A stretch of DNA of 64,000 bases. It comes from Candidatus Hinthialibacteria bacterium OLB16. GTDB taxonomy: Bacteria > Hinthialibacterota > Hinthialibacteria > OLB16. Position 1 is the first letter of the stretch, and the number at the start of each line of letters is the position of its first letter. A model generated the notes under the pieces. It was not told the origin of the DNA and did not search any database. It saw only the letters and a program-made list of their open reading frames with translations. The stretch covers positions 1 through 64,000 of the forward strand of contig LMZT01000147.1 in the NCBI GenBank assembly GCA_001567115.1, written 5' to 3'. A program made the position numbers and the translations under genes. Below, piece by piece: positions 40,717 through 59,167 of this stretch.

Positions 40717-41073
40717 CTATTCCTCGACCAGTTCGATGCGAGCGATCGGAGCGGCATCGCGAGTCCGCTCCGGCAGGCGGACGATCCGAGTGTATCCTCC
40801 CGGTCGAGTCAGGTATCTCGGGCCGATTTCTGTGAACAGATGATTGATCAGGCCCCAATCCTGGATATCTCTTTTGGCCCGGCGCCGACGAGCCAGATTA
40901 TCTTCTTTAGCCAGGGTGATCAAAGGTTCAACAAAACGGCGGAGCTCCTTGCATTTGGCAAGGGTTGTCACAATGGCCCCATGGGTCAGGAGGGAAACCG
41001 CCTGATTGCGCATAAGTGCTATCCGATGGGAGGAGGTTCTCCCCAATTTCCTTTGTCCCATACGATGGTACAT
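40717..41073 (-). CDS. rplQ: 50S ribosomal protein L17
   Basis: 118 residues. The family opening RMGQRKLGRTSSHRIALMRN is followed by SLLTHGAIVTTLAKCKELRRFVEPLITLAK, both diagnostic for bL17. The C-terminus is RIELVEE, as usual. It lies 62 bases after rpoA, the standard order of the alpha operon, and near the surface of the peptide exit tunnel in the 50S subunit. Confidence 0.95.
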   Translation of the reverse strand: MYHRMGQRKLGRTSSHRIALMRNQAVSLLTHGAIVTTLAKCKELRRFVEPLITLAKEDNLARRRRAKRDIQDWGLINHLFTEIGPRYLTRPGGYTRIVRLPERTRDAAPIARIELVEE

Positions 41074-41135
41074 TATCTAACCCATTCCTTTCGTTTCTGC
41101 CTGCAAATCTGCCTGAAAGATCGAGAGGTGGCCTC

Positions 41136-42152
41136 TCACATCGTTTCAGCATCACGCTTGACCAGGCGTTCCTCAGCCTGCTTCAAGGTGGCTTCATCAA
41201 CCATGGTGACTCCCAGGGAGAGGCCCATGCGATCGAGCAGCTCTTTGATCTCTGTAAGAGATTTTCTCCCGAAGTTACGGTACTTCAGTATTTCATTTTC
41301 CGATTTTTGAACGAGTTCCGCAACAGTCCGAATATTCGCCGCCTTGAGGCAGTTATAAGACCGAACGGACAGTTCAAGTTCATCGACCGCCTTGAACAGG
41401 TTCTGATTGATCTCATGGCGTTCTTCCTGTTCGGTCACATAAATCGGAACCGGGCCTTCTTCGAAGTGAATGAAGAGGGTCATGTAATCTTTGAGAAGGC
41501 GGCCCGCATAGGATAATGCATCTTCCGGTGTAACAGTCCCATTGGTCCAGATCTCGAGGATCAGGCGGTCATAGTCGGTAATGTCACCCACACGGGCATT
41601 TTCGACTTTGTATTTGACCCGTTTGACGGGGGAAAACACACTATCGACCGCGATTGCAAAGATATCATCCTCATCGGTACGGTTCCGTTCGGAGGGGACA
41701 TAACCGATCCCCACATCCACAAGCAGCTCCATTTCGAGCGTGCTGTTTTCTCCGATGGTGGCAATATGTTCATCCGGGTTGAGAATCTCGACATCGGCAT
41801 TGGGGTGGATATCCGCTGCAGTGACGGCACCCGGCCCGGAAACAGAGAGGGTCAGGTTCACTGGATCCGCACGGTGCATTTTGAAGACGATATTGGAGAG
41901 GTTGAGGATGATGTCGGTGACATCTTCAACAACCCCCGGGAGGGAAGAAACCTCCTGAAGGACACCAGCAATTTTGACACTCCGCAGGGCTGATCCACGA
42001 ATCGACGAGAGCAGAACTCTCCGAAGGCTGTTACCCAGAGTGATGCCATATCCCCGTTCGAGGGGTTCGACAATGAACTTCCCATACCGATCGGAATGCG
42101 TTTCTTCTTCGCACTCGATCCGACTGGGCAAAATAACCGACTTGAAATCCAT
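41136..42152 (-). CDS. rpoA: DNA-directed RNA polymerase subunit alpha
   Basis: 338 residues. The N-terminal dimerisation domain has FIVEPLERGYGITLGNSLRRVLLSSIRGSA and VPSERNRTDEDDIFAIAVDSVFSPVKRVKY. After a linker comes the C-terminal DNA- and activator-binding domain (LSVRSYNCLKAANIRTVAEL, ILKYRNFGRKSLTEIKELL). Both domains are complete, so upstream-element recognition should be intact. It sits between rpsD and rplQ. Confidence 0.97.
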   Translation of the reverse strand: MDFKSVILPSRIECEEETHSDRYGKFIVEPLERGYGITLGNSLRRVLLSSIRGSALRSVKIAGVLQEVSSLPGVVEDVTDIILNLSNIVFKMHRADPVNLTLSVSGPGAVTAADIHPNADVEILNPDEHIATIGENSTLEMELLVDVGIGYVPSERNRTDEDDIFAIAVDSVFSPVKRVKYKVENARVGDITDYDRLILEIWTNGTVTPEDALSYAGRLLKDYMTLFIHFEEGPVPIYVTEQEERHEINQNLFKAVDELELSVRSYNCLKAANIRTVAELVQKSENEILKYRNFGRKSLTEIKELLDRMGLSLGVTMVDEATLKQAEERLVKRDAETM

Positions 42153-42170
42153 CGCAGTCTCCCCTTCCGA

Positions 42171-42803
42171 TTAGCGCGAGTAAAGTTCGACGATCAAATC
42201 TTCCTTGACAGGAATATTGATTTCCTCGACTGTCGGCAGCCGTTCAAACTTCGCCGAAAAATCCTCGTTGTTACGGTTGATCCAGGCCGCCTGACGGGAG
42301 CTTTCCGCCAGGTTCCAAGCCAGTTGAATATTGGCAATATTACGGCTGGCTGGTATCAGTTGAACCACATCACCCGGGCGAACCAGGTAGGATGGGATAT
42401 TGATGGCCTGACCGTTGACCGTAAAGTGTCCATGCCGGACCAGCTGGCGTGCCTGGGCACGGGAGAGTGCGCACCCCATGCGGTAGGCGATATTATCCAG
42501 GCGGCGCTCCAGGAGTTGCAGCAGATTTTCACCTGTGACCCCACGCATCCGATTGGCTTTGAAAAAGTAATTCCGGAACTGGGTCTCGAGAATCCCGTAA
42601 ATGCGGCGGGCTTTCTGTTTTTCACGCAGCTGGAAGGAGTAGTTCGATCCGCGTCCGCGTCCACGCCTGGTTCCATGCTGTCCGGGGGCATATTCACGGC
42701 GGCTGACTGAACATTTATCCGAGTAGCAGCGAGGGCCTTTCAGGAAAAGCTTGGTAGTTTCCCGCCGACACAAGCGGCACACCGGTCCGATATATTTGGC
42801 CAC
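42171..42803 (-). CDS. rpsD: 30S ribosomal protein S4
   Basis: 210 residues; primary 16S rRNA binder. It is the zinc-binding (C+) form with Cys9, Cys12, Cys26 and Cys31 in [13 protein letters not shown] and RCYSDKCS. The S4 RNA-binding domain ([26 protein letters not shown]) and the ending LIVELYSR are typical. In other bacteria S4 represses its own operon. No matching leader structure is obvious to me here. Confidence 0.96.
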
Positions 42804-42836
42804 GATTTCCTAACCTTTCTTTAATGATCTTGTTTC

Positions 42837-43229
42837 TTATACGCGACGTTTCTTCGGCGGACGGCACCCATTATGCGGAACGGGGGTGACATCCTTGATC
42901 AGTGCGATGGTCAATCCACAGGCCTGAAGCGAGCGGATCGCCGATTCGCGCCCTGATCCAGGGCCTTTGACATGGACTTCGACTGAACGAAGACCGTGTT
43001 CCATAGCCCGCTTGGCACAGGTTTCTGCAGCAACCTGGGCAGCGAAAGGAGTCCCTTTTCGAGATCCACGAAATCCCATTCCGCCTGAAGTTGCCCAGGC
43101 AATGACATTTCCCGCCATGTCAGAAATCGCGACAATCGTGTTGTTAAAGGTCGCACGAATGTGTACCACCCCTTTCGGGACATTCTTTTTGACCTTCTTG
43201 ACGCGAGTGCGTGGTGCTTGTTTTCCCAC
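42837..43229 (-). CDS. rpsK: 30S ribosomal protein S11
   Basis: 130 residues from GTG 43229, with GAGGAGG 10 bases upstream. [54 protein letters not shown] and the C-terminal [17 protein letters not shown] are diagnostic for uS11, a platform protein of the 30S subunit. Confidence 0.96.
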
Positions 43230-43265
43230 TCTCTGTCATCCTCCTCGATGGAGTTCCTTAGATTT

Positions 43266-43288
43266 CAGTCTCTTCGGAGAACAGACTG
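43266..43288 (-). promoter_or_regulatory. hairpin in the rpsM-rpsK intergenic region
   Basis: CAGTCT (43266-43271) pairs with AGACTG (43283-43288), and an inner stem TCTC/GAGA around TTCG (plus-strand sense) competes with it. This 90-base gap is long for the alpha operon. The two alternative folds just ahead of the rpsK ribosome binding site suggest, but do not prove, translational control. Confidence 0.3.
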
Positions 43289-43319
43289 ATTCGTTTCTCT
43301 GTTTGCATTTAACCTTAAA

Positions 43320-43688
43320 CTACTTCTTTTTGGCGCCAACAGTGCGACGCGGCCCTTTTCGGGTGCGGGCATTGGTGTGCGTCCTCTGGCCTCGTACCGG
43401 CAGTCCGCGACGGTGGCGCAGTCCACGGTAGCAGCCGATGTCCATCAGGCGCTTGATGTTCATCTGTACCTGGCGGCGCAAATCACCTTCCACCACGTAA
43501 TCTGCCTGGATCACTGCCGCAATCTTGGTAATTTCCTGGTCGGTCAGGTCTTTGACCCGGGTTTCCGGTTTCACACCTGCCTTTTCCAGGATATCTTTGG
43601 CATTGACTCTTCCCACCCCATAGATGGAAGAGAGCCCGATATCGATCCGTTTCTCGCGGGGAAGATCGATTCCTGCAATACGAGCCAT
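43320..43688 (-). CDS. rpsM: 30S ribosomal protein S13
   Basis: 122 residues. [26 protein letters not shown] and the ending [25 protein letters not shown] identify uS13, which bridges the 30S head to the 50S subunit. The gene lies 15 bases after rpmJ. Confidence 0.97.
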
Positions 43689-43703
43689 GAGTATCCTCTT
43701 TTC

Positions 43704-43817
43704 TCAGCCTTGGCGCTGTTTGTGGCGCGGATTGGTGCAGATCACACGGATGACGCCCCGTCGCCGGATAATCTTGCACTTATTACAGATCGGTTTGACC
43801 GATGGTCTGACTTTCAT
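43704..43817 (-). CDS. rpmJ: 50S ribosomal protein L36
   Basis: A 37-residue ORF reading [20 protein letters not shown], then [17 protein letters not shown]. The zinc-binding Cys11, Cys14, Cys27 and His32 are all present (C+ form). Position between infA and rpsM is the standard one. Confidence 0.95.
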
Positions 43818-43836
43818 ATCGGTTTACCTGACCCTT

Positions 43837-44046
43837 TCAAAGTCGGCTTATTATTCGTCCCCTGCCCGGGTCATAAGGGGATATTTCCACCTTGACTTCC
43901 TCGCCCGGCAGGAGCCGTGTAAATTTTAACTTCATTTCGTCCGCCAAGTGGGCTTTCACACGTTTGCCCCCTCCCAACTCCAGTTCAAACAGCTGGTTGG
44001 GAAGGTTTTTGACCACTTTGGCGGTTCTCAGTTCGTGTTCTGTCAC
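43837..44046 (-). CDS. infA: translation initiation factor IF-1
   Basis: 69 residues, an OB-fold protein that blocks the 30S A site during initiation. KVVKNLPNQLFELELGGGKRVKAHLADEMKLKF, LLPGEEVKVEISPYDPGRGRIISRL match the family through its conserved PYD..RGRI end. GTG start overlapping the map stop (GTGA). The N-terminus is more divergent than in most bacteria. Confidence 0.93.
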   Translation of the reverse strand: MTEHELRTAKVVKNLPNQLFELELGGGKRVKAHLADEMKLKFTRLLPGEEVKVEISPYDPGRGRIISRL

Positions 44047-44867
44047 GCGACTGGTGCGGCTTCCGGCAACCGTGTCAGGATTTTAGGCCCTTCCTCGGTC
44101 AGGACCACAGTATCCTCGACATGCACACTGGCCTTCCGGTCTCGAGTCACCACAGTCCAGTTATCATCCAGAACTTCAACCTCATGCGTTCCGAGGTTCA
44201 ACATCGGTTCGATGGCCAATGCCAGTCCTACTCGAAGCCGAACACCGGTACCGCTGCGTCCAAAATTCGGGACCTGGGGATCTTCATGCAGATTCCTGCC
44301 GATTCCATGGCCCACAAAATCTCTGACTACACTATACCCCGCCGACTCCGCTCTGGCCTGAACTGCCGCAGAGATGTCATGGAGCCGGTTGCCATCCTGG
44401 AACGCTCGAATTCCATCATCGAGCGATTCATGCGCCACGCGGATCAGCTTCAGGATTTCCGGCTGAACATTTCCAACCGGATAGGTCCTGGCCATATCCC
44501 CGTAAAAGCCCTCATACAGTACCCCGATATCCAGGCTGCAGATATCACCATCCCGCAGCGGGGTGTGGTCCGGGATACCATGGACCACTTTTTCATTGAC
44601 TGAGAAGCAGACCGATGCAGGAAAGCCGCGGTAGCCTTTGAAAGCAGGAGTTCCTCCTCTTTCTCTGATGGCCTTCTCAACCCACCGGTCGATTTCTTTC
44701 GGGATGGCACCCACATCGATCAGATGTTTTACACCCTGCATGACTTCGGCAACCAGCCGGTTGCTTTCGGCCAGCGCCTGAATCTCTTTGGGTGATTTGA
44801 GGTGCATCCCCTCCTGACTCCTCGTGAACATCCGTTTCAGGATTCCGGATTTTTGACCGTCAATCAA
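44043..44867 (-). CDS. map: methionine aminopeptidase, type I
   Basis: Removes N-terminal Met from nascent proteins. The two-metal ligands are visible: Asp in SLDIGVLYEGF, Asp in GDMARTYPVG, His in FVGHGIGRNLHEDP, Glu in LAIEPM and Glu in HVEDTVVLTEEGP. Start is uncertain. TTG 44867 has AGGTGA before it. The in-frame ATG 44807 has AGGAGGGG almost touching it and begins MHLKSPKEIQAL, closer to the family start. It follows secY directly; adk, which usually lies between, is absent. Confidence 0.94.
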   Translation of the reverse strand: MIDGQKSGILKRMFTRSQEGMHLKSPKEIQALAESNRLVAEVMQGVKHLIDVGAIPKEIDRWVEKAIRERGGTPAFKGYRGFPASVCFSVNEKVVHGIPDHTPLRDGDICSLDIGVLYEGFYGDMARTYPVGNVQPEILKLIRVAHESLDDGIRAFQDGNRLHDISAAVQARAESAGYSVVRDFVGHGIGRNLHEDPQVPNFGRSGTGVRLRVGLALAIEPMLNLGTHEVEVLDDNWTVVTRDRKASVHVEDTVVLTEEGPKILTRLPEAAPVA

Positions 44868-44875
44868 CCAATCAC

Positions 44876-46219
44876 CTAGAACCTGGGGCGCCGTGTTGGC
44901 CCGACACGAAAACCATCATAATTCCGTACACGAAGGTGGTTTTCAATCTGATTGACCGTATCGAGCGCGACGCCGACCACGATGATTAACGATGTTCCAC
45001 CTAAAAAGTCATTCATCTGGGGTGGAACCTGCGACCATGCAATAAATATCTGTGGAAGAATCGCGACAAAGGCCAGCATGATAGCGCCAGCCAGTGTGAT
45101 TCTCGTCAGGATATTGTTCAGATATTCCTCGGTGCGTGCTCCATGCTGGTAACCGGGAATGGCAACACCATGCTTCTGGAGATTCTCAGCGATATCCTTT
45201 GGATTGAAGGTAATCGCTGTGTAGAAGTAGCAGAAAAACAGGATCAGAAGGAATTCACCCAGGACATACAGTGGATTCCCCGGCACAAACCAGTGAGTGA
45301 AATCCTGAAGGTACATGTTGATTTTTTCAGGGAGAAAGCCACCGATCAACGAAAGAATTGTCGAAGGGAAGATCATGATCGATGAGGCAAAGATGACAGG
45401 AATCACGCCTGCGGTGTTGATTCGCAGGGGGAGGTAAGAGGTGGTTGCCGGTGCCTGCCGGCGTCCGACAATCATCTTCCCGCGTTTGATCATGACCCGA
45501 CGCTGGCCATAGGTCAGCAGAACGATGAAGCCGATGACACCGACCATCAGGGCGATCATGAAAACGAGAGTGAAGGTTGATATCATGTCTTCCTTCACAA
45601 GCCCGCCCAGAAGGGCGATTGCCTGTGGAAAGCGTGCGATGATATTGGCAAAGATGATCAGTGAAATGCCATTCCCGATTCCCTGCTGGGTAATCTGTTC
45701 ACCCATCCACATCACGAGGATCGAACCCGCTGTCATCGCGATGGCTCCCTGGAAAAGGAAGCTGAAGCCCGGGTTATATGCGACGGAAAATCCATTGACT
45801 TCCTGATGCTGGTAAGCCGAAAGCAGCATGAATGACTGGCCAAAGGTAATCACAACAGTCAGATAACGTGTCCATTGCTCGATTTTTTTCCGACCCTCTT
45901 CGCCCTCTTTGGAGAGCTGCTCGAGGGTTGGAATCACGATGGTCAGGAGCTGGAGGACAATCGAGGCGGTAATATAAGGCATCACGCCCATCGCAAAAAT
46001 GGACAACCGTTGAAATGCGCCACCGGTGAACTGATTGATGAGGCCGAAGATATCATTTGCCCCCCCACTTCCCCGGGACAGCTGGAGAAGGAGGTTGCTG
46101 TCGATCCCGGGAATGGGGATCTGATTGCCAACCTGGAGCAGAAGAAGGATGCCCAGAGTAAAAAGGAGGCGCTTCCGAAGCTCAGGAATTTTGAAAATAT
46201 TTTTGAAGGCGCCGAGCAT
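44876..46219 (-). CDS. secY: protein translocase subunit SecY
   Basis: 447 residues with ten membrane segments. Landmarks: GNQIPIPGIDSN, MGVMPYITASIVLQLL, GNGISLIIFANI, the cytoplasmic loop YGQRRVMIKRGK, INTAGVIPVIFASS, and FNPKDIAENLQKHGVAIPGY. It forms the protein-conducting pore with SecE and SecG, needed by the many exported proteins in this window. It lies 5 bases after rplO. Confidence 0.97.
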   Translation of the reverse strand: MLGAFKNIFKIPELRKRLLFTLGILLLLQVGNQIPIPGIDSNLLLQLSRGSGGANDIFGLINQFTGGAFQRLSIFAMGVMPYITASIVLQLLTIVIPTLEQLSKEGEEGRKKIEQWTRYLTVVITFGQSFMLLSAYQHQEVNGFSVAYNPGFSFLFQGAIAMTAGSILVMWMGEQITQQGIGNGISLIIFANIIARFPQAIALLGGLVKEDMISTFTLVFMIALMVGVIGFIVLLTYGQRRVMIKRGKMIVGRRQAPATTSYLPLRINTAGVIPVIFASSIMIFPSTILSLIGGFLPEKINMYLQDFTHWFVPGNPLYVLGEFLLILFFCYFYTAITFNPKDIAENLQKHGVAIPGYQHGARTEEYLNNILTRITLAGAIMLAFVAILPQIFIAWSQVPPQMNDFLGGTSLIIVVGVALDTVNQIENHLRVRNYDGFRVGPTRRPRF

Positions 46220-46224
46220 TTCGG

Positions 46225-46725
46225 TCAGTTCTCAATCCTGGAGGGAGCAGTTTTGGCGGATGAAGCATCCTGGGTATTGTAGCGTGGGATCAGGTTAAAT
46301 TTTCCACCAGCCTTCTGGAGTTTTTCGAGGGCGCTTTTGCTGATGGCATGGGCACTCAATTCGACTTTGACACCGATCTCACCCTCACCCAGGATTTTGA
46401 CCAGTCCATCAGAGTTTTTAATCCAGCCTCTGGCAGCCATTTCTTCAGGGGTTACCACAGTTCCATCCGTAAGTTTGGAAAAATTGGCCAGATTGACAAT
46501 CTGAAACTCGGTCCGGTCAATGGGTTTGAAGCCCCGTTTGGGCACACGCCTTTGAAGGGGCATCTGACCGCCTTCAAACCAGGCACGCTGCTTGCTGCCT
46601 GCGCGTGCACCTTGGCCTTTGGTTCCACGACCGGCAGTCTTGCCAAGTCCGGAGCCATATCCACGACCCAGCCTCTTTTTTGTTTTTTTCGACCCCGGTG
46701 GGGGAGAAAGCTTTGGTGAACTCAC
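46225..46725 (-). CDS. rplO: 50S ribosomal protein L15
   Basis: The start is GTG 46725, overlapping the rpmD stop (GTGA), with GAGGAAATATC before it; the open frame extends 10 codons further. 166 residues. KKRLGRGYGSGLGKTAGRGTKGQGARAG and FEGGQMPLQRRVPKRGF are the uL15 core. The C-terminus has a short Ala/Ser-rich tail beyond the usual end. Confidence 0.95.
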   Translation of the reverse strand: MSSPKLSPPPGSKKTKKRLGRGYGSGLGKTAGRGTKGQGARAGSKQRAWFEGGQMPLQRRVPKRGFKPIDRTEFQIVNLANFSKLTDGTVVTPEEMAARGWIKNSDGLVKILGEGEIGVKVELSAHAISKSALEKLQKAGGKFNLIPRYNTQDASSAKTAPSRIEN

Positions 46726-46910
46726 GATATTTCCTCGACACAAATTAAGTCGCACACCTTACGAGTCATCCCTGCAATCTGAGGGGTGAGCTGAACTTCG
46801 ACGGACTGGTTGATACGATGAAGCCCAAGCGCCACAAGTGTCGCCGCTCGATCAGGCTTGCGTCCGTATTTGCTCTTTTTCAATGTGATACGAACCTTTT
46901 TTTCACTCAT
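46722..46910 (-). CDS. rpmD: 50S ribosomal protein L30
   Basis: 62 residues. [33 protein letters not shown] fits uL30 well, including the conserved G(L/K)...N turn. It overlaps both rpsE (ATGA) and rplO (GTGA), so translation of the three is coupled. Confidence 0.92.
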
Positions 46911-47428
46911 GACAGTTTCAATACCCCAGAATCTCTCGAACTGTTTTTCCCCGAAGCAGCCGCCTGAGAGGCCATTCGGAGGCCTTTCAATCCTTCGATG
47001 GTGGCTTTGGCGATATTGATCTGGTTGCTGGAGCCGAGTGACTTGGTCAGAATATCCCGGACTCCGGCCACCTCGAGAATATCGCGAACCGGGCCACCCG
47101 CGATCACACCGGTACCGCGTGATGCCGGTTTCAGAAGAACCCGGGCAGCACTGAATTCCCCTGTGGTGTCATGGGGGATCGAAGAGCCGATCATTGGAAC
47201 CGCGAACATGTTCTGGGAAGCTTTTTCGATTGCCTTCCGGATCGCATCGGGCACTTCGGTCGCTTTTCCGTGGCCCAGTCCGACACGCCCTTTGCCATCA
47301 CCGACAGCCACCAGGGCGCTGAAGGAGAAACGGCGTCCTCCTTTGACAACCTTGGCGCTCCGGTTGATTTGAATGATTTTTTCCTGCAACTCGCTTTTCT
47401 GCGATGATTTCGACTGCTCGTTTCTCAT
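46907..47428 (-). CDS. rpsE: 30S ribosomal protein S5
   Basis: Start ATG 47428 gives 173 residues, the family length; the frame stays open through the upstream rplR but lacks S5 similarity there. [36 protein letters not shown] and [23 protein letters not shown] are diagnostic of uS5, a decoding-accuracy protein. Confidence 0.96.
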
Positions 47429-47447
47429 TACGTATCCAGTGCCAATA

Positions 47448-47813
47448 TTAGAATTCGATACCCGCCTCTCGGGCACCATCTGCGAAAGCTTTGACTCGGC
47501 CATGGAAGAGGTATCCACCACGGTCGAAGACCACTGTTGAAATGCCAGCAGCTTTAATTTTTTCACCCATGATTTTGCCGGCACGCGCAGCGGCTTCAAC
47601 GCTGCTTGTGGATTTCACCAGTGCACGGAACTCTTTCGAGTTGGTGGTAATCGCGCACAAGGTGCGTCCGGTGGAATCATCGATCACCTGGCCGGAAATA
47701 TGCCGGAGAGACCGGAATACCGCCAAACGTGGCCTTTCCGATGTGCCGGTGATCTTTTTACGCACACGTCGATGCCTTGCATCTCGTCCCACACGTCTTG
47801 ATTGGACCGTCAT
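47448..47813 (-). CDS. rplR: 50S ribosomal protein L18
   Basis: 121 residues. [32 protein letters not shown] and [28 protein letters not shown] identify uL18, which binds 5S rRNA. It lies between rplF and rpsE in the standard spc order. Confidence 0.96.
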
Positions 47814-47836
47814 TTTCGCTTCGAGACCTTCCGGGA

Positions 47837-48373
47837 TTAAGCGTTCTTCTTGCCGACCTTGAGACGAATGACTTCGCCGGCATAGCGAACCCCTTTGCCT
47901 TTATAGGGTTCAGGTTTTCTGAAAGCGCGGATTTCCGCCGCTGTCTGCCCAACAACCTCCTTGTCGATTCCTTCGACGAAAAGGAGGGTATTCTTTTCTA
48001 CACGAATATCGATTCCCTGGGGGAATGGATAAAAAATCGGATGGGAATATCCGAGATCCAGCTTGAGGCTTTTTCCCTCAACCGCCGCACGATAACCGAC
48101 TCCCTGAATCTCAAGCCGGCGGGTGAATCCCTGGGTCACTCCAACAACCATGTTGTTGATCAGAGCGCGTGTCAGGCCATGGAGGGCCTTGTTCTGCTTC
48201 TCATCATTGGGCCGTGTCACCAGGATTTTTTCATCCTCGATGTTCACCGAGATGCGTGAATGAATGGACCGGCTCAAAGCGCCTTTTGGCCCTTTCACAT
48301 CGATCGTGCTGTTTTCGATTTTAACCTGGACCCCGCTGGGGATCGTTATGGGCATTTTTCCGATTCGTGACAT
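47837..48373 (-). CDS. rplF: 50S ribosomal protein L6
   Basis: ATG 48373 gives 178 residues beginning MSRIGKMPITIPSGV, the family start; the open frame continues upstream into rpsH without meaning. The C-terminal PEPYKGKGVRYAGEVIRLKVGKKNA is diagnostic for uL6, located near the GTPase-associated region. Confidence 0.96.
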   Translation of the reverse strand: MSRIGKMPITIPSGVQVKIENSTIDVKGPKGALSRSIHSRISVNIEDEKILVTRPNDEKQNKALHGLTRALINNMVVGVTQGFTRRLEIQGVGYRAAVEGKSLKLDLGYSHPIFYPFPQGIDIRVEKNTLLFVEGIDKEVVGQTAAEIRAFRKPEPYKGKGVRYAGEVIRLKVGKKNA

Positions 48374-48380
48374 AATATTC

Positions 48381-48779
48381 TCACCAGATTCGGCACAGGA
48401 CCTCGCCACCAATTCCCAGCTTGCGTGCCTGTTTGCCGGACATGACTCCTTGGTTAGTGGATAGGATGACGACACCGATACCCCCCTGAACTCGAGGAAT
48501 ATCCTCCTTCCCGACATAAATCCGCACACTCGGCTTGCTGACTCGCTCGAGGCGGGAAATAACTTTTTCGCCATTCTCGCCATACTTCAGATAAATGCGC
48601 AGGATGCCCTGCTTTTTGTTATCGAGGTATCGATAATTGCGGATAAAGCCTTCCTGTTTGAGGATATTGGCCAGGCTCCTCTTCAGCTTGGAGGAAGGCA
48701 TTTCGACACGGTCTTTGGAGACTGTGTTGGCATTGCGAATCCGTGTCAGGAAATCGGCAATCGGATCTGTCATCGACAT
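48381..48779 (-). CDS. rpsH: 30S ribosomal protein S8
   Basis: 132 residues. [29 protein letters not shown] begins the family fold, and [28 protein letters not shown] is the conserved C-terminus of uS8. S8 represses the spc operon in E. coli. A similar target in the rplE region was not searched for structurally. Confidence 0.96.
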
Positions 48780-48803
48780 GGTTTTCTCTTCTCCGTTCCT
48801 TCT

Positions 48804-48989
48804 CTACCAGCTGGACTTGACCATGCCGGGGATTTCGCCACGATGGGCCATTTCTCTCAAGCAGATACGGCACAGCCGGAATTTTCGATAATAACCGCGG
48901 GACCTTCCGCAGACCTGGCACCGGTGGTAGGCCCGGGAGGCGAATTTCGGCGTACGCTGTGATTTAACAATTAAACTTCTTTTAGCCAT
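48804..48989 (-). CDS. rpsN: 30S ribosomal protein S14, zinc-binding type Z
   Basis: 61 residues, the short C+ form. Zinc ligands Cys24, Cys27 ([15 protein letters not shown]) and Cys40, Cys43 (LCRICLRE) are all present, followed by [11 protein letters not shown]. No duplicate C- form is nearby. Confidence 0.96.
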
Positions 48990-49015
48990 CGGCTCGAGCG
49001 TGTCCTTTCCGGCTG

Positions 49016-49555
49016 CTATTTTCTGAACGGCATCCCGAGAAGGGCGAGCAGCTCGCGGCCTTCTTCGTCATTGCGCGCTGTGGTTACTATTGTCACATCC
49101 ATGCCATGCAGGCGTGGAATGTTGTCGTAATGAATCTCGGGGAAGACCAGCTGTTCGGTCAACCCGAATGAATAATTCCCTCTTCCATCGAAACTGCGTG
49201 TAGGCAGCCCGCGGAAGTCTCGTATACGAGGTATGGCGATGGAAATCAGGCGATCCAGCAGAGACCACATCTGTTCCCGCCGGAGGGTCACCATGCAGCC
49301 GATCGGCATTCCCTGGCGGACTTTGAAGTTGGATATGGATTTCCTGGCGCGTGTAATCACCGGCTGCTGACCGGCGATGGCCGCCATGTTGACTCGCAGC
49401 CCATCGAGAATTTTCGTATCCCGAGTGCCTTCGCCAACGCCCATATTCAGGGTCACCTTGACTATTTTGGGCACTTCCATGGGGTTCTTGTACCCAAAGC
49501 GCTTTATCATCGCTGGCACAACCTGTTCGTTGTATTTCTGTGTAAGCCTGTTCAT
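49016..49555 (-). CDS. rplE: 50S ribosomal protein L5
   Basis: 179 residues. [46 protein letters not shown] and [25 protein letters not shown] are uL5 landmarks. It binds 5S rRNA and contacts the P-site tRNA. Confidence 0.97.
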
Positions 49556-49573
49556 GATTCAGTGGATCCCGCT

Positions 49574-49816
49574 TTACTCTTCGCTAATCACTTTCACATT
49601 CGACTGATGGACAGGGATTTCGCGTTCAATGATACCGCCTTTGATATTTTTCTGGGGATTTGGGCGGACATGCTTCTTCCGCAGGTTGATATTTTCCACC
49701 AGGATGCGCTGATCCTTTGGAAAGACACGCAGAACCTTGCCGGTTTTCCCCCGTTCGGTTTTTCGGCCGCTGATGATGCGGACGGTATCGCCTTTTTTAA
49801 CAAATGCACGAGCCAT
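49574..49816 (-). CDS. rplX: 50S ribosomal protein L24 (short form)
   Basis: ATG 49816 starts MARAFVKKGDTVRIISGRKTERGKTGKVLRVF, the KOW domain of uL24. The protein stops after PVHQSNVKVISEE at 80 residues. Most bacterial L24 proteins are about 20 residues longer at the C-terminus. The gene is separated from rplN by an inserted secreted-protein gene. Confidence 0.93.
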   Translation of the reverse strand: MARAFVKKGDTVRIISGRKTERGKTGKVLRVFPKDQRILVENINLRKKHVRPNPQKNIKGGIIEREIPVHQSNVKVISEE

Positions 49817-49830
49817 ATTGATGATCCTCA

Positions 49831-49858
49831 CACACAAACCTCGGAGTTTCCCCCGAGG
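49831..49858 (-). terminator. hairpin between the TIGR04073-type gene and rplX
   Basis: On the minus strand CCTCGG (49858-49853) pairs with CCGAGG (49844-49839) around an 8-base loop, followed by TTTGTGTG. It resembles a weak terminator. It must allow read-through, since rplX and the remaining spc genes lie downstream with no obvious other promoter. An attenuator is possible. Confidence 0.35.
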
Positions 49859-49902
49859 CCTATGGGTTCCCGTATCCCGCGGGATTGCTTCAGATAATTC
49901 GA

Positions 49903-50274
49903 TTAATAATCGTATGTTTCCGTAATGTACTCAGGTTTGATCCGCGATTTGAAATTGTTTCCGCCCGGGCCAGGACTGAGGAATGTGATAGTATCCCAAA
50001 TCCCATGGCTTGTGCGTCGAATTCCTTCGCGAACCCCCTTGACGGTACCCACCGAGATGGCCTTGACTGTGGCGCGATCGCGGTTGGCGGTGTACTTGCC
50101 AGTATTTTCCCGATAGGTGTTGATCACCTGGTTGGGAACCTCAAACACCCCGAGGAAAGTATTCGCCAGCCCCCGGCCGAGCTTGTCGGTCGCTGATTGC
50201 GCCTGGGCTGACTGATCCCCTGAACAGAACCACATACCTGCAACAAAAACACCCAACACTGCCAGTTTATTCAT
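49903..50274 (-). CDS. exported TIGR04073-type (exosortase system-associated) small protein inserted in the ribosomal operon
   Basis: 123 residues from ATG 50274, with AGGAGG and an 8-base gap upstream; longer in-frame starts lack this. A signal peptide (KLAVLGVFVAGMWFCSGDQSAQAQ) precedes the family hallmark KLGRGLANTFLGVFEVPNQVINTYREN and a C-terminal ISVGTVKGVREGIRRTSHGIWDTITF. The family is known from genomes with exosortase/PEP-CTERM systems and has no known function. It lies between rplN and rplX on the same strand, an unusual place for an exported protein, and so is expected to share ribosomal-protein transcription. A hairpin follows it. Confidence 0.75.
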   Translation of the reverse strand: MNKLAVLGVFVAGMWFCSGDQSAQAQSATDKLGRGLANTFLGVFEVPNQVINTYRENTGKYTANRDRATVKAISVGTVKGVREGIRRTSHGIWDTITFLSPGPGGNNFKSRIKPEYITETYDY

Positions 50275-50331
50275 TTTGCCCACCTCCTGCATGTGTCGGC
50301 CCCCCAAATTATCCCCTTCAATCCGTGGCAC

Positions 50332-50700
50332 TCAGATCACCTCGGGGGCAAGTGAGACGATCCTCATGAATTTGCGATCCCTGAGTTCCCGCGCAATCGG
50401 GCCGAAGACACGTGTGCCGATCGGTTCTTTTGCGTCATTGACCAGAACAGCAGCGTTCTCGTCAAAACGAATGTATGAACCATCGGGACGACGAAACTGT
50501 TTGCGCATTCGAACGATAACAGCTTTTTTCACTTCGCCCTTTTTGACAGTCCCCTCCGGGATAGCCTCTTTCACAGCCACGACAATCAGGTCACCCAAAC
50601 TGGCATAGCGCCGATTGGTTCCACCCAACACACGAATACACTGCACCTTTTTGGCACCTGTATTGTCTGCCACAGACAGAAAAGTTTGTACTTGAATCAT
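50332..50700 (-). CDS. rplN: 50S ribosomal protein L14
   Basis: 122 residues. [27 protein letters not shown] and [28 protein letters not shown], ending [11 protein letters not shown], are diagnostic for uL14, which forms an intersubunit bridge. The next gene in transcription is not rplX, as is usual, but the exported TIGR04073-type protein. Confidence 0.97.
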
Positions 50701-50774
50701 AACAGACTCATTTCCTGTTTTCTACTCCCGCCTGCTTTATAAATCCCCGCAGGGTCGGTTCGCATTAGTGAGAT

Positions 50775-51032
50775 TCAGCCTGCTTTTTTTACAATTTCAA
50801 CCACTCGCCAGCATTTGGTCCTGGAAAGCGGACGGGTTTCCATCATTCGAACGATATCGCCTTCGCCGCAGGTGTTATTTTCATCATGCGCATGGTATTT
50901 CTTGCTGCGTTTGATGGTTTTACCATACAGCGGGTGCTCAACCGGCCGTTCGACCAGCACCACGGCGGTCTTGTCCATTTTAGTGGAGACCACGGTGCCT
51001 ACACGGGTTTTACGGAGTGCAGTTCTAGCCAT
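50775..51032 (-). CDS. rpsQ: 30S ribosomal protein S17
   Basis: ATG 51032 gives 85 residues starting [52 protein letters not shown] and [24 protein letters not shown] complete the OB-fold of uS17. It overlaps rpmC by 8 bases. Confidence 0.95.
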
Positions 51033-51234
51033 TTTTCTTCTTCTCAACAAGCTCGGTTTCTCTCAGCACGGTCAGCCCGCGTGCAATGTCCCTCTTCAAT
51101 TTTTTGAGGAGGTTTGAGTTTTCGATCTGACCGGTGGTCATTTTAAACCTGTTTGAAAACAGCTCCTCTTTGAGCGAGACCACTTTGTGGTCGATCTCGC
51201 TTTTGGTCATATCACGGAAATCATTAGCTTTCAT
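51025..51234 (-). CDS. rpmC: 50S ribosomal protein L29
   Basis: 69 residues of two helices. [32 protein letters not shown] and [17 protein letters not shown] match uL29 at the polypeptide exit site. Order rplP-rpmC-rpsQ is standard. Confidence 0.93.
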
Positions 51235-51248
51235 CGTGGTTTTCCTGT

Positions 51249-51665
51249 CTATTCAATCCGAATCTCATCGCGCGCCACAGTGCGGGTTCTGACAGGCAAT
51301 TTGTGCCCGGCCAGCCGCATGGCTTCTTCCGCCTGGTCCCGGGGAATTCCTTCCACTTCAAAAAGGATCATTCCTGGTTTGACCACCACGACGTGCATTT
51401 CAGGGGTTCCTTTACCGGATCCCATGCGTGTTTCTGCCGGGTGTTTGGTAACCGGTTTGTGCGGGAACACGCGAATCCATACTTTTCCGGTTCGTTTCAT
51501 GTACCGGGTTATCGCAATACGCGCTGCCTCAATCTGGCGGGAGGTCACCCAGCCATTGGTCACTGCTTTCAGGCCAAATTCACCAAACGAAACCTCGCTG
51601 CCGCGGTAAGCGGTACCGGTGAGCCTTCCTTTTTGACATTTGCGGAATTTACTCCGCTTAGGCAT
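51249..51665 (-). CDS. rplP: 50S ribosomal protein L16
   Basis: [32 protein letters not shown] from ATG 51665; an in-frame ATG two codons earlier is less typical. [33 protein letters not shown] is the conserved uL16 core. It overlaps the rpsC stop. Confidence 0.96.
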
Positions 51666-52341
51666 TAACATGGCTTACATTACTCTCCTCTTCAGCAACA
51701 ACTTCCTGCGGGCGGCGTGGCAGGATTTCACCCTTGAAGATCCAGACTTTGACGCCAATCACACCATAGGTGGTCCGTGCTTCAGCGAAACCATAATCGA
51801 TATCCGCCCGAAATGTGTGGAGGGGGACTCTGCCTTCGCGGTATCCTTCGGTGCGGGACATTTCCGCTCCACCCAGCCGCCCCGAGATAATGACACGGGT
51901 TCCCAGAGCACCGGCCTGCATGACAGTCTGGATGGCCCGTTTCAGAGTGCGGCGGAAGGAAGCGCGATTCTCAAGCTGCAGCGCGATGTTTTCAGCCACC
52001 AGCTGGGAATCGAGATCCGCCTGTTTAATTTCCTGGATATTCAGAATGACCTGTTTGTCAGTTTTCGACTGAACCAGTTTCTTGAGGCGTTCCACCTCCT
52101 GGCCGCGGCGGCCGATGATGATTCCCGGGCGTGCGGTATGGATGGTGATACGCAATTTTTTTGTATAGCGTTCAATTTCGACATTCGAGATGCCGGCATG
52201 GGAGAGCTGTTTCTTGACCAGGTTTCGGATCAAGCGGTCTTCGTGCAGGCAGTCGGCAAAGGTTTTTTCGGCATACCATTTCGATTTCCATGTGGTGGTA
52301 ATGCCGAGCCGATTTGCTTTCGGGTGAACTTTCTGTCCCAC
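51658..52341 (-). CDS. rpsC: 30S ribosomal protein S3
   Basis: 227 residues. [13 protein letters not shown], the KH domain [17 protein letters not shown] and the C-terminal [27 protein letters not shown] identify uS3, part of the mRNA entry site. Confidence 0.97.
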
Positions 52342-52371
52342 GATGCTGTGTTCCTTTCTCCCCGCTGTGCC

Positions 52372-52722
52372 TTATTTTTCCTCGAGTTCCACATGAATGT
52401 GGCTGGCTCTTTTGAGGATTGGGTGTGCGCGGCCCTGTGGAGCCGGTTGAATTCGTTTCAGTTTGCCCTGGATGCCCGCCATGCCGGCTTCATCCACCCA
52501 GATTCTGGAAACATAGAGAGAATCGCCATCCATGTTGAAATTGGTGGTTGCATTATGGAAGGCAGACTGCAGCACCTTTTCCACGAAACGGGCTGGCTTG
52601 TTAAATGTAAAGTGAAGGATCGCCTGGGCTTCGTGGTACTTCTTGCCACGAATCATATCCACCACAAGACGGCATTTGCGTGGGGTCACCCTGGCAAACA
52701 TGTGACTTGCTTTGGCAGCCAT
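52372..52722 (-). CDS. rplV: 50S ribosomal protein L22
   Basis: 116 residues. HMFARVTPRKCRLVVDMIRGKK and the extended loop ending APQGRAHPILKRASHIHVELEEK match uL22, whose loop lines the exit tunnel. No macrolide-resistance type insertion is apparent. Confidence 0.96.
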   Translation of the reverse strand: MAAKASHMFARVTPRKCRLVVDMIRGKKYHEAQAILHFTFNKPARFVEKVLQSAFHNATTNFNMDGDSLYVSRIWVDEAGMAGIQGKLKRIQPAPQGRAHPILKRASHIHVELEEK

Positions 52723-52726
52723 TTTC

Positions 52727-53014
52727 TTATCCCTTCATCCGGACGGCTTTACCCGATTTTCCGCCATGTGCTTTGAAAGTTCGAGTGGGTGAAAACTCAC
52801 CCAGTTTATGTCCGACCATGTTTTCGGTCACATAGACCGGGATGAACTTTTTTCCATTATGGACAGCAATGTTATGGCCGACCATTTCAGGCAATATGGT
52901 GCTGCGGCGCGACCAAGTGCGTATCACTCTCTTCTCACGAGACTCATTCAAGGTCTCGATTTTTTTGACCAGGTGAGCGTCCACAAAAGGACCCTTTTTA
53001 AGCGATCTCGGCAT
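52727..53014 (-). CDS. rpsS: 30S ribosomal protein S19
   Basis: 95 residues: [43 protein letters not shown] and [23 protein letters not shown] define uS19. It lies 4 bases before rplV. Confidence 0.97.
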
Positions 53015-53036
53015 ATTTTATCCTTGTTTCGGAGAC

Positions 53037-53861
53037 CTAGCTCTTTCTTCTGCGAACAATCATCGCTTCGGTGCGATGGTTTTTACGTGTACGATAACCT
53101 TTGCTTGGTGTTCCCCAGGGTGAACACGGGTGCCTTCCGCCGGAGGACTTCCCTTCTCCACCACCCATCGGGTGGTCGACTGGATTGCGCGCCACACCTC
53201 GTGACAGGGGGCGCCTCCCCAGCCAGCGGGATCGTCCCGCTTTTCCGATGGAGATGTTCATGTGATCGGCATTGCCAACTGTGCCGATGGTCGCACGGCA
53301 GTCCAGGTGGACATAACGCACTTCGGAAGAAGGCAGTTTGATCTGGGCATATTCACCCTCTTTGGCAGCCACCTGGGCATAAGAGCCAGCCGAACGTGCC
53401 ATTGCAGCTCCCTTGCCTATTTTCAGCTCGATCGCATGGATCAGGGTGCCTTCAAGAATCTTCCGGAGGGGGAGACAGTTCCCTTCCTTGTGTTCGGCAT
53501 TCGGCCCGCTTTCGATGACATCTCCCACCTTGATGTTGGCAGGTGCGATGATATACCGCTTTTCGCCATCCGCATAATGCAGCAGAGCGATTCGTGCGGA
53601 GCGGTTGGGATCATATTCGATATGAGCCACTTTGGCGGGAATGCCATCCTTGGTCCGTTTGAAATCGACAATGCGATATCTCTGCTTGTGGCCGCCTCCA
53701 CGATGCCTGCTGGTGACACGTCCATAGCTGTTGCGTCCTGACGAGCGTGTTTTCGGGGCGAGCAGCGACCTCTCCGGCTTGCTGCGTGTGATCTCCTCGA
53801 AAGCGGAATTCGTCAGAAACCGGCGGCTCGCAGTAACGGGTTTATATGTCTTGATAGCCAT
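53037..53861 (-). CDS. rplB: 50S ribosomal protein L2
   Basis: 274 residues. [23 protein letters not shown] and the peptidyl-transferase-proximal [25 protein letters not shown] are strictly conserved uL2 motifs, with the functional His in the latter intact. Confidence 0.98.
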
Positions 53862-53873
53862 TTTTCAAGATCC

Positions 53874-54164
53874 TTAGAATTCGATCGTATAGCCCGGTTT
53901 AAGCTTTACGATGGCTTTTTTCCAATGAGGAGTGCTGCCTGCACGGACTCGGACACGGCGGATTTTGCCAGGAACATTCATGACACGGACATTGTCCACC
54001 TTGACCTTGAAGATCGACTCGATTGCATTCTTGATCTGGGCTTTATTGGCACGAAGGTCAACCTTGAAGGCATAACGGCCCTCGTCTTCCTGAAGCATGT
54101 TGGTGCGTTCAGTAAACCAGAACTTTTCAACCACATCCTGTGGTGTTCGCAGATGCTGGGCCAT
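53874..54164 (-). CDS. rplW: 50S ribosomal protein L23
   Basis: 96 residues. RYAFKVDLRANKAQIKNAIESIFKVKVDNVRVMNVPGK is the uL23 core that docks trigger factor and SRP at the exit site. Normal position between rplD and rplB. Confidence 0.95.
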   Translation of the reverse strand: MAQHLRTPQDVVEKFWFTERTNMLQEDEGRYAFKVDLRANKAQIKNAIESIFKVKVDNVRVMNVPGKIRRVRVRAGSTPHWKKAIVKLKPGYTIEF

Positions 54165-54179
54165 GATATCCTCTTTACC

Positions 54180-54806
54180 TTATCCAATCAGCCGCAGAGA
54201 GAGCGACTCGACAGTATTTTTCAGCAACACGAGGTTCCGCGCTTCAACCGCATCCAGGGTTGAGAAATCCTGAGACCGTACCAGTTTCAACCCGGGGATA
54301 TTCCGGGCAGACAAACTGGCGATCTCACTCAGTCCATCATGAACCAGAACAGTCCCTTTTCCGCAATCCAAAGCCCCCAGGATGGAAGCAAAGATTTTGG
54401 TTTTGATCTGTTCGAGTTGAATTTCATCAACAACCTTGATGGCGTTCTCTTTAACCTTCTGGGAAAGAGCGCAACGGAGAGCGCCTCTCTTCATTTTCAC
54501 AGGAAGGTCCTGATGAAAGTTGCTTTTCTGGTTGCCGAAGGCACGTCCACCGCCAACCCACTGTGGGGCACGGATGCTTCCCTGGCGAGCGCGGCCTGTG
54601 CCTTTCTGGCGCCACGGTTTTTTTCCGCCGCCGCGGACATGTGACCGGTTCTTGGTCATGGATGTTCCCTGGCGCAGATTGGCTCTCTGGGCAACCACCA
54701 CCTGGTGAACCAGGCCGGGGCGATCATCACAGGCGAAGACCGCATCCGGGAGTTCGATCTCCCCGATGGCCGTTCCATCTTGACGATAAAGGGGTAACTT
54801 CGGCAT
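54180..54806 (-). CDS. rplD: 50S ribosomal protein L4
   Basis: 208 residues. The conserved loop ([45 protein letters not shown]) reaches into the exit tunnel. In E. coli L4 represses the S10 operon; no leader matching that system is claimed here. Confidence 0.96.
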
Positions 54807-54817
54807 GGAAGCCCTTC

Positions 54818-55468
54818 CTATTTCTTTTTTAAAGCCTTTCCGCGGTTACTGGCGCGGATTTCTATCAGGCGTCCCGGAGGTCCAGGAACGCATCCCTTGA
54901 CATAAATGAGGTGATTCTCAGCATCCACTTTGGCGACTTTCAGCCCCAATGCGGTCACTTTGGTTCCCCCCATTCTTCCAGCCATTCTCTGGCCCCGGAA
55001 AACTCTTGAAGGGTAGGAGCTGGCCCCAATCGAGCCTGATACGCGGGTTTCCATCTGGCCATGCGATGCCGCCTGGCCACGAAAGTGGTGGCGTTTGACC
55101 ACCCCGGCGAATCCTCTTCCCTTGCTTGTTCCGGTTATATCGACAAATTCACCTTCAGCAAATGTGTCGGCTGAAAGAGTTGTCCCGATTTCGGGCAATT
55201 CATCATCCTTGTTACAGCGCACTTCGCGCAGGTAACGGGTCGAATCGACACCTGCCTTATCAAAATGGCCTCTCAAGGGTTTGGAAACTTTTTTTTCCTT
55301 GATTTCCCCGAAACCGATCTGATAAGCAGAGTATCCATCGGACTCTGTTTTCTTCACCTGGACAACCGGGCATGGTCCCACCTGCAGGGCGGTCATGGGT
55401 ATGACGACACCATTCTCATCATACATGTGGGTCATCCGCAGTTTTCGTCCCAAAAGGGTCTTAGTCAT
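54818..55468 (-). CDS. rplC: 50S ribosomal protein L3
   Basis: 216 residues. LLGRKLRMTHMYDENGVVIPMT at the start, and GTSKGRGFAGVVKRHHFRGQAASHG with PSRVFRGQRMAGRMGGTKVT later, are uL3 hallmarks, including the loop near the peptidyl transferase centre. Confidence 0.97.
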   Translation of the reverse strand: MTKTLLGRKLRMTHMYDENGVVIPMTALQVGPCPVVQVKKTESDGYSAYQIGFGEIKEKKVSKPLRGHFDKAGVDSTRYLREVRCNKDDELPEIGTTLSADTFAEGEFVDITGTSKGRGFAGVVKRHHFRGQAASHGQMETRVSGSIGASSYPSRVFRGQRMAGRMGGTKVTALGLKVAKVDAENHLIYVKGCVPGPPGRLIEIRASNRGKALKKK

Positions 55469-55482
55469 CGGTGCGGTTCCGT

Positions 55483-55794
55483 TTACACTTGGATTTCGAC
55501 AAAGACGCCCGCTGGCAGGTCGAGCTGCTGAAGGGCATCCATGGTTTTCGGACTGGATTCGCGGATATCGATGAGTCGCTTGTGGGTTCTCATCTCAAAC
55601 TGTTCACGCGATTTTTTGTCCGTAAAGGTGGACCTATTCACAGTGAACCGGCTGAAATTAGTCGGCAGAGGAATCGGTCCAACGATTTTCGCTCCGGTCC
55701 TCCGGGCGGTTTCAACGATCTGCTGGGTTGACTGGTCAATCAACCGATGATCGAAAGATTTCAGCCGGATCCTGATCAGATTTGGCTGCACCAT
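55483..55794 (-). CDS. rpsJ: 30S ribosomal protein S10
   Basis: 103 residues. [39 protein letters not shown] and RTHKRLIDI identify uS10, also the NusE partner in antitermination. It opens the S10 cluster 20 bases after tuf, joining str and S10 in one block. Confidence 0.97.
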
Positions 55795-55814
55795 AAGAGA
55801 TTTCCTTTATGATC

Positions 55815-57008
55815 CTATTCAACAATCTCGCTAATGACGCCAGCGCCGACAGTCCTTCCACCTTCACGGATTGCGAAGCGCAGTTCTTTTTCCATAGCGA
55901 TCGGGGTGAGCAATTCACCATTGATTTCGATATTATCTCCCGGCATAACCATTTCGGTCCCTTCCGGCAGATAGACCGAACCGGTCACGTCTGTTGTCCG
56001 GAAATAGAACTGGGGACGGTAGCCATTGAAGAATGGAGTGTGGCGGCCGCCTTCATCCTTGCTGAGGATGTAGCAGGTAGCCTTGAATTTCTTGTGCGGC
56101 TTGATCGAGCCTGGTTTGGCGATAACCTGGCCGCGCTCGATTCCGGTACGCTCCACGCCACGAAGCAGAAGACCGACATTGTCGCCTGCCTGGGCTGAAT
56201 CGAGCAGCTTGCGGAACATTTCAATATCGGTGCAGGTAGTTTTGACTGTGTCGCGGATTCCAACCAGCTCGACTTCTTCCATGCGCTTGATGGTTCCACG
56301 TTCGACACGCCCAGTCGCCACAGTACCGCGGCCGGCGATCGAGAAAACGTCTTCGACCGGCATCAGGAACGGTTTGTCGACATCGCGCTCGGGGAGCGGA
56401 ATGTAGCTGTCGACCGCTTCAACAAGTTCATCGATGCACTTGCAGGCGGCGTCATCCTTGCCTTCGGATTCCATGGCTTTGAGGGCCGAACCGATTACGA
56501 CAGGGATGTCGTCACCGGGGAAGCCATACGAGGAGAGCAGTTCACGAACTTCCAGCTCAACCAGCTGAAGGAGTTCGGGATCATCCACCATATCGGCCTT
56601 GTTCATGAAGACCACGATGTGGGGAACGTTCACCTGGCGTGCCAGCAGAACGTGCTCGCGGGTCTGTGGCATGGGGCCATCTGCAGCCGAAACAACAAGG
56701 ATGGCACCATCCATCTGAGCCGCACCAGTGATCATGTTCTTGATATAGTCAGCGTGGCCTGGGCAGTCGACATGAGCATAGTGACGGTTGTCGCTCTCAT
56801 ATTCGACATGCTGGGTGGCGATGGTTATCCCTCGAGCCTTTTCCTCAGGTGCATTGTCGATGTCATCGTACTTGCGTACCTGAGCCTTGCCTTTGTGGGC
56901 TTGCCGCATGGTAATTGCTGCGGTGAGTGTGGTCTTGCCGTGATCGACGTGACCAATCGTTCCGATATTGACGTGCGGTTTCGTCCTCTCGAATTTCGCT
57001 TTTCCCAT
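55815..57008 (-). CDS. tuf: translation elongation factor Tu
   Basis: ATG 57008 with GGAGGAAGGACG before it gives 397 residues. An upstream in-frame start at 57080 has no EF-Tu similarity. The G1 loop GHVDHGKT, the [12 protein letters not shown] switch, NKADM and the three-domain layout ([13 protein letters not shown] in domain 2, VVMPGDN-like MVMPGDN in domain 3) are complete. Only one tuf copy is seen. Confidence 0.98.
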
Positions 57009-57085
57009 CGTCCTTCCTCCAGATACCGATGTATCAACCTGACCATCCTCCGACCAGTCGCGGAGGAAGGCCTCTTTCACAATTT

Positions 57086-59167
57086 CTATCTCGCTCGCGC
57101 GATGATTTCATCCATGATCTTCTGCGGCACTGACTCATAGTGGGCCACCTGCATGGTATAGGTGGCACGGCCCTGAGTCAGGGAGCGCAGTGTGGTTGCA
57201 TAACCAAACATTTCAGCGAGTGGCACCAGGGCGGTAATCACCTGGCTGACACTGCGGGAATCCATTCTTTCGATGCGGCCGCGCCGGGAGTTCAAGCTGC
57301 CAACGACATCCCCCAGGTATGATTCAGGGGTAACAACCTCAACTTCCATGACAGGTTCCAGGATAACCGGTTTCCCTTTTTTGAAACCTTCCTGGAAGGC
57401 CATCGAACCGGCAATCGAGAAAGCCATTTCGCTGGAGTCGACGGCATGGAAGGTGCCATCCACCAGAATAGCCTTGATATCGACCACCGGATACCCCGCA
57501 ATGACACCATTCTGCATGGCTGCGAGAATGCCTTTTTCGACAGCGGGGATGTACTCTTTGGGTATCGCTCCACCCACAATGCGGTTATCGAACTCAAAAC
57601 CGGTGCCCGGCTCGAGAGGCTCAAACTCCATGACGACATGGCCATACTGGCCACGTCCGCCGGACTGACGCACAAAGCGTCCTTCGGAGGATGAGGCAAT
57701 CGACATGGTTTCACGGTAAGCGACCTGCGGCTTGCCGACATTCGCTCCAACTTTGAATTCACGTGTCAGGCGGTCGACAATGATTTCGAGGTGCAATTCG
57801 CCCATCCCGGCGATAATGGTCTGGCCGGTCTCCTCATCTGTCCGTATCTGGAAAGTGGGATCTTCTTCGGCCAGTTTGGCAAGACTGACAGCCAGGCGAT
57901 CCTGGTCCAGCTTTGTTTTAGGCTCAATTGCAACACTGATGACCGGCTCAGGGAATTCGAGAGACTCCAGGACAATCGGGTTGGCCGGATCACAGAGTGT
58001 GTCACCGGTATAGGTATTGCTCAGGCCGATGGCGACAGCAATTTCTCCGGTTGTCACTCTTTCAACTTCTTCGCGCTTGTTGGAGTGCATCCGCAACAGA
58101 CGCCCAACACGCTCTTTTTTTCCGGTAGTCATGTTCATGACATACTGGCCGCTGTTGATCGCTCCGGAATAAACCCGGAAATAGACCAGCTTCCCATGAA
58201 CATCGGTCTGCAGTTTGAAAGCAAGGGCGGAAAACGGAGCATCTTCGCGAGGCTCACGGATGACATGGTTATCAGGCTCATCCGGGAGGTGGCCTTGAAC
58301 TGGGGGTTTATCGAGGGGTGATGGAAGGTAATCCACCACGGCATTGAGGAGCAGCTGGACCCCTTTATTCTTGAATGAAGCCCCACACAGCACCGGGATG
58401 AAATCGTTGGCGATCACCGCCTTGCGGATGACAGCCTTGAGGTCTTCAACCGGAATATCCTGTCCCTCGAGGTACCTTTCGAGGATGGTCTCATCCTGGT
58501 CTGCAGCGGCCTCGATCAGGTGAGTCCGGTTTTTTATATAGACATCGCGATATTCTTCCGGAATTTCAAACTGGATTGGCTTGGCGCCAGCTTCTTCGGT
58601 GTTCCATGTGTAGGCAACACCTTCGATGAGATCCACCAGGGCGGTAAAGTTTTCTTCGGCACCGATCGGGATCTGAATCGGAACTGCATTCGCTCCCAGT
58701 CTTTCGTGCATAAGGCGGACAGTGCCAAAAAAATCAGCACCCATGCGGTCCATTTTATTGACGAATGCCAGCCTGGGGACTTTATATTTATCGGCCTGGC
58801 GCCAGACGGTTTCGGACTGTGGCTCAACCCCGCCGACTGCACAAAACAGGGCGACCGCACCATCCAGAACCCTCAGGGAGCGCTCGACTTCAACAGTAAA
58901 ATCGACGTGGCCCGGGGTGTCGATGATGTTGATCCGGTGGTTTTTCCAGAAACAGGTGGTTGCAGCGGATTGGATTGTGATCCCGCGCTCCCGCTCCTGG
59001 ACCATCCAGTCCATTTCAGCGGCACCGTCATGAACCTCGCCAATTTTGTGGGTTCGACCGGTGTAGTAGAGAATTCGTTCGGTAGTTGTCGTTTTACCGG
59101 CATCGATATGGGCCATGATGCCGATATTTCTGACAAGATCAAGACTTTCTACAGTTGCTGTTGCCAT
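57086..59167 (-). CDS. fusA: translation elongation factor G
   Basis: 693 residues. G1 [15 protein letters not shown], switch [24 protein letters not shown], and domains II-V ending [19 protein letters not shown]. The domain IV-type [17 protein letters not shown], which mimics the tRNA anticodon arm, is intact, so this is a translocase and not a recycling-only paralogue. Confidence 0.97.

Follow-up and report, generated by a model that had tools for sequence, protein, structure and literature searches.

Within the window, a stretch of 64,000 nucleotides of contig LMZT01000147.1, a gene of the TIGR04073 family, here called copy R, is located between rplN and rplX in the S10-spc cluster, one of the most conserved gene orders of bacteria. 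On the best reading of the sequences, R is a lineage-specific TIGR04073 paralog that has been part of the ribosomal operon since before the split of three genera of one family. We consider it probable that R was captured by this operon and is co-transcribed with it and exported, which would supply an envelope factor in proportion to growth. The unusual aspect of R is its location, and not its protein family.

The original prediction, made from the window alone, had described a signal-peptide protein of the TIGR04073 type between the two ribosomal protein genes, with a strong ribosome binding site of its own. Its coordinates and strand proved correct, and both neighbours were matched by their NCBIfam profiles (Table 1). 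The open reading frame lies inside the window and starts with ATG, although a mechanical reading also allows a GTG start at 50331, which would give a protein of 142 aa. R is separated from rplN by 57 nt on its upstream side and from rplX by 86 nt on its downstream side. The gaps of the host cluster, in which rpmJ is readable within the infA-rpsM gap, are mostly short, and most other S10/spc junctions do not exceed 30 nt. On the minus strand, neither a promoter nor a terminator scoring better than chance was found between R and either of its neighbours. Together with the same-strand packing and the two gap lengths, this is consistent with R being co-transcribed as part of the S10-spc mRNA.

Table 1. 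Features of the region of copy R, with positions in the window.
Feature	Position	Strand	Evidence
Inserted gene copy R, TIGR04073 family protein, 123 aa	49903..50274	-	ORF; TIGR04073.1, 61.4 bits; orthologs at the same junction in G001 and G002
Predicted Sec signal peptide of R, residues 1-25 (MNKLAVLGVFVAGMWFCSGDQSAQA), A-x-A site before QSATDK	50200..50274	-	read from sequence
Shine-Dalgarno of R, AGGAGGTG, 6 nt before ATG	50281..50288	-	duplex energy -15.4 kcal/mol
Intercistronic RNA hairpin GGCCUCGGGG-GAAA-CUCCGAGGUU, GNRA tetraloop, before rplX	49837..49860	-	z -3.35; kept in 3/3 genera
rplN (L14), upstream neighbour of R	50332..50700	-	TIGR01067, 188 bits
rplX (L24), downstream neighbour of R	49574..49816	-	TIGR01079, 81.5 bits, 87-aa reading
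Host cluster fusA-tuf-S10-spc-alpha through rplQ, all on one strand	40717..59167	-	gene order and gaps

The rplN-rplX junction was compared in 14 genomes of the phylum, three of them from the family of the window, one per genus (G000, the genome of the window, G001 and G002), and 11 from outside it. All three genera have R at this junction, the orthologs of G001 and G002 being 64% and 52% identical to it over the aligned protein. The insertion is therefore older than the separation of the genera, and its suspected conservation in the lineage is borne out. The records of the two relatives are JAJVIK010000004.1 ('bacterium isolate Bin_79R') and JAJDBZ010000235.1 (deposited as 'Candidatus Omnitrophota bacterium'), and these were the only two genomes with the arrangement in a wider contig collection, in which a single-sequence scan alone found none. 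Outside the family, none of the 11 genomes of the phylum has a gene between rplN and rplX, which are direct neighbours at distances from an overlap to ~20 nt, except in G003, where a gap of ~144 nt is devoid of a comparable ORF. A second phylum, reached through genome G025, was represented by 40 genomes, of which 39 contain TIGR04073 genes, mostly as two copies that are often close together. When contigs and positions were compared in the 36 of these genomes in which rplN was found, no TIGR04073 match was located near it, so that the ribosomal location is special to the family of the window among the genomes tested. No homolog of R was found in plasmids, phages or viral contigs.

Membership of R in TIGR04073 was upheld, since the NCBIfam score given in Table 1 and those of the orthologs (61.2 bits in G001 and 66.6 bits in G002) are all above the curated cut-off of 50 bits. 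Pfam gave no match for R, and no ribosomal protein family matched it in either NCBIfam or Pfam. In an alignment of 10 sequences, R and its paralogs share the invariant core residues K31, R34, G35, N38, E45, P47, G76, G80, R87, G91, P101 and P114. The signal peptide was predicted by eye from a hydrophobic stretch followed by an A-x-A site, without a lipobox; the site is kept in all three orthologs, as ASA/QS and AIA/EN in the relatives. The AlphaFold model is helical but weak (pLDDT 67, pTM 0.47), with helices at residues 3-18, within the signal peptide, and at 28-43, 45-58 and 65-96. Residues 79-96 form an amphipathic helix with a hydrophobic moment of 0.59. A Foldseek search of the PDB with this model returned nothing at E<=0.001; TolQ- and ExbB-like helical folds matched at E of about 1 or worse. 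No paper that mentions TIGR04073 by that name was found in the literature library searched. The product of R appears to be a small, basic, helical protein of the periplasm or the membrane surface.

For 31 cistrons of the cluster, the duplex energy with the anti-Shine-Dalgarno sequence was calculated over the preceding 20 nt. The site of R ranks first, followed by those of rpsK (-13.7 kcal/mol) and rplP (-9.6 kcal/mol), while the neighbouring rplN and rplX reach -6.8 and -6.4 kcal/mol. The sites of the orthologs are similarly strong, at -15.6 (G001) and -12.6 kcal/mol (G002), compared with -3.7 to -9.1 kcal/mol for rplN and rplX of the same genomes. The codon usage of R (-0.031) is not ribosomal-like (background pieces, -0.017, sd 0.026), but in this organism even the ribosomal genes are barely distinct from the background, and codon usage is therefore uninformative on the expression of R.

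The region between R and rplX contains a hairpin, GGCCUCGGGGGAAACUCCGAGGUU, with a stem of 9 bp. The original prediction of a hairpin following R is borne out, and the structure is retained in both relatives. It is located 20 nt before the start of rplX, just ahead of the rplX Shine-Dalgarno, and does not resemble a terminator, having no U-run; it is therefore an intercistronic or rplX-leader element rather than an end of the gene. The corresponding stems in the relatives are AACCUCGGGG-GCAA-CCCCGAGGUU and GGCCUCGGG...CCCGGGGCC, and the z-scores in the three genomes are -3.35, -3.25 and -1.91. All 27 pair cells hold (27/27), two pairs are changed on both sides and sliding of the partners breaks the pairing (n=3); the structure is thus kept, but covariation was not retained as a signal, because with three sequences shuffles often reach the same values. 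A dispersed repeat was rejected as an explanation of the hairpin: with 2 mismatches allowed, G000 contains it only once, and G001 has one exact copy, its other matches having 2 mismatches. Rfam gave no family match for the hairpin or across the operon. A short stretch like GYGUGUGA lies between the hairpin and the rplX Shine-Dalgarno (49817-49836, minus strand) and is common to the three genera in the alignment, which suggests that conservation may extend over the entire rplX leader. A role of the hairpin as spacer, in RNA processing or in the translation of rplX is possible.

The three genomes of the family each contain three TIGR04073 genes, one of each of the groups R, A and B. A is Cys-rich and has at least 200 aa, B has about 150 aa, and both are encoded away from the ribosomal operon. 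R differs from them by a longer linker, by the absence of the [ST]P[LF][ED] motif and by its basic and more hydrophilic composition. In a tree to which 21 sequences of the second phylum were added, R forms a clade (support 100/99) that groups with A and B (81/77), and a transfer of R from the second phylum is accordingly not favoured. Between G000 and G001, dN and dS are 0.29 and 2.46 for R, the latter near saturation, 0.32 and 1.75 for A, 0.37 and 1.88 for B, and 0.03 and 1.95 for rplN. R therefore behaves as a coding sequence kept by purifying selection of ordinary strength, and is much less tightly constrained than rplN. Two observations were made beside the paralogs. In the genome of the window, 77 nt separate B from the reading frame of a downstream gene that can be read as tgt (queuine tRNA-ribosyltransferase; L037:10429-8679, minus strand). 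The contig of A also carries an ORF of 2305 aa with many repeated modules of ~100 residues ('EIDVSP...LDFG'), probably a large surface protein (L036:6915-13832, minus strand).

The main rival to a growth-coupled role is that R was inserted once by chance and has a useful function of its own unrelated to growth, and has stayed because its loss would put rplX expression at risk, the location being without regulatory meaning. Such a history would fit the paralogs A and B, which manage without the operon, the second phylum with no TIGR04073 gene near rplN, and the much faster evolution of R than of rplN. It accounts less well for a gene kept in three genera under purifying selection with a very strong Shine-Dalgarno. 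Moreover, the intergenic spacing at the site varies among the three genera from 86 to 177 nt, and the site thus tolerates change. We consider this explanation less likely, though quite possible on the sequence evidence.

A link of R with translation itself would be a further explanation, either through binding of its basic mature part to RNA or ribosomes or through its nascent signal peptide, which would fix S10-spc polysomes to the membrane before secY. The location in a ribosomal operon would agree with it, as would the pI of mature R (9.2-9.8), most paralog cores being near neutral or acidic (4.9-6.5 among the A and B cores tested); yet the core of B in G002, an ordinary paralog, is basic as well (pI 9.4). 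In two genomes of another phylum, G025 and G089, a gene readable as rbfA (ribosome-binding factor A) directly follows a tandem TIGR04073 pair (L104:4315-5783, plus strand, and L105:5365-3972, minus strand), an adjacency that could be taken in the same sense. Against such a link stand the clear N-terminal signal peptide with its A-x-A site in three orthologs and the lack of any ribosomal or RNA-binding family match, and we regard it as improbable. An assembly or binning artefact, in which R was misjoined into the operon, might be suspected because the window comes from a fragmented assembly of 181 contigs, but is refuted by the same arrangement in JAJVIK010000004.1 and JAJDBZ010000235.1.

The genomes were also searched for exosortase (PF09721) and PEP-CTERM proteins (PF07589). 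Exosortase was found in G000, G001, G002 and G013, the same four of the 14 genomes that have a TIGR04073 match. This co-occurrence corresponds to about two independent lineages, and the match of G013 is below the cut-off. The protein of G013, which is outside the family, is a divergent, Cys-rich TIGR04073-like protein (L015:1243-1917, plus strand; 46.4 bits). Each of the three family members encodes PEP-CTERM proteins. The genome of the window, as anticipated, has both components, with four PEP-CTERM matches and one exosortase gene, which is preceded by a glycosyltransferase gene and followed by an EpsI-like gene, as read from the translations. R itself has no PEP-CTERM signal: it ends with ...IKPEYITETYDY, lacks a C-terminal hydrophobic helix and is not among the PF07589 matches, and its sequence therefore gives no support for a role as an exosortase substrate.

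In the explanation that we prefer, capture of R for growth-coupled supply, a TIGR04073 paralog would have entered the rplN-rplX junction in the common ancestor of the family and have been held there by selection. R would form an additional cistron of the S10-spc mRNA with strong translation from a Shine-Dalgarno of its own, and its product would be exported through Sec with cleavage between AQA and QS, while the hairpin would serve as a spacer or processing element. Its position in the operon would make its supply track ribosome synthesis, and the envelope or exopolysaccharide (exosortase/PEP-CTERM) machinery could thereby grow in proportion to the cell. We infer both the growth coupling and the envelope role from sequence features. 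In a more far-reaching version, which we consider very improbable, the signal peptide and strong Shine-Dalgarno of R would tether the S10-spc mRNA and its polysomes to the membrane, or R would feed the state of the envelope back to ribosome synthesis; if true, a direct coupling between growth and the envelope would be built into the ribosomal operon. An envelope-protein gene fixed in the S10-spc cluster for the depth of a family would be a natural experiment that ties envelope building to ribosome production, and the existence of a copy in the ribosomal operon is a hint that one TIGR04073 member or more is required in step with growth.

R resembles TIGR04073, annotated in NCBIfam as an exosortase system-associated protein, in its score above the cut-off, its signal peptide, the KLGRG-x2-N-x3-G-x2-E-x-P core, the second G-rich helix, the T-F-x2-P motif and the C-terminal P-E-Y region. 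It departs from the family in its ribosomal-operon location, in the longer linker between its two helical parts and in being basic and hydrophilic without the '[ST]P[LF][ED]' motif of A and B. The EpsH/exosortase system for the sorting of PEP-CTERM proteins was described by Haft et al. 2006 (PMC1569441). The genome of the window is similar to it in having an exosortase, an EpsI-like neighbour and PEP-CTERM proteins, whereas R lacks a PEP-CTERM signal and lies apart from the exosortase locus. Non-ribosomal genes can join the str/S10 cluster and be passed down a lineage, as in the example of bfd-bfr between str and S10 in the part of PMC8046335 considered here. R is alike in being a non-ribosomal gene in a conserved cluster that is inherited within a lineage. 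However, the examples in that part of the source are located between operons or at rplL-rsmC, whereas R is a single gene for a predicted exported protein within the spc operon, at the rplN/rplX junction.
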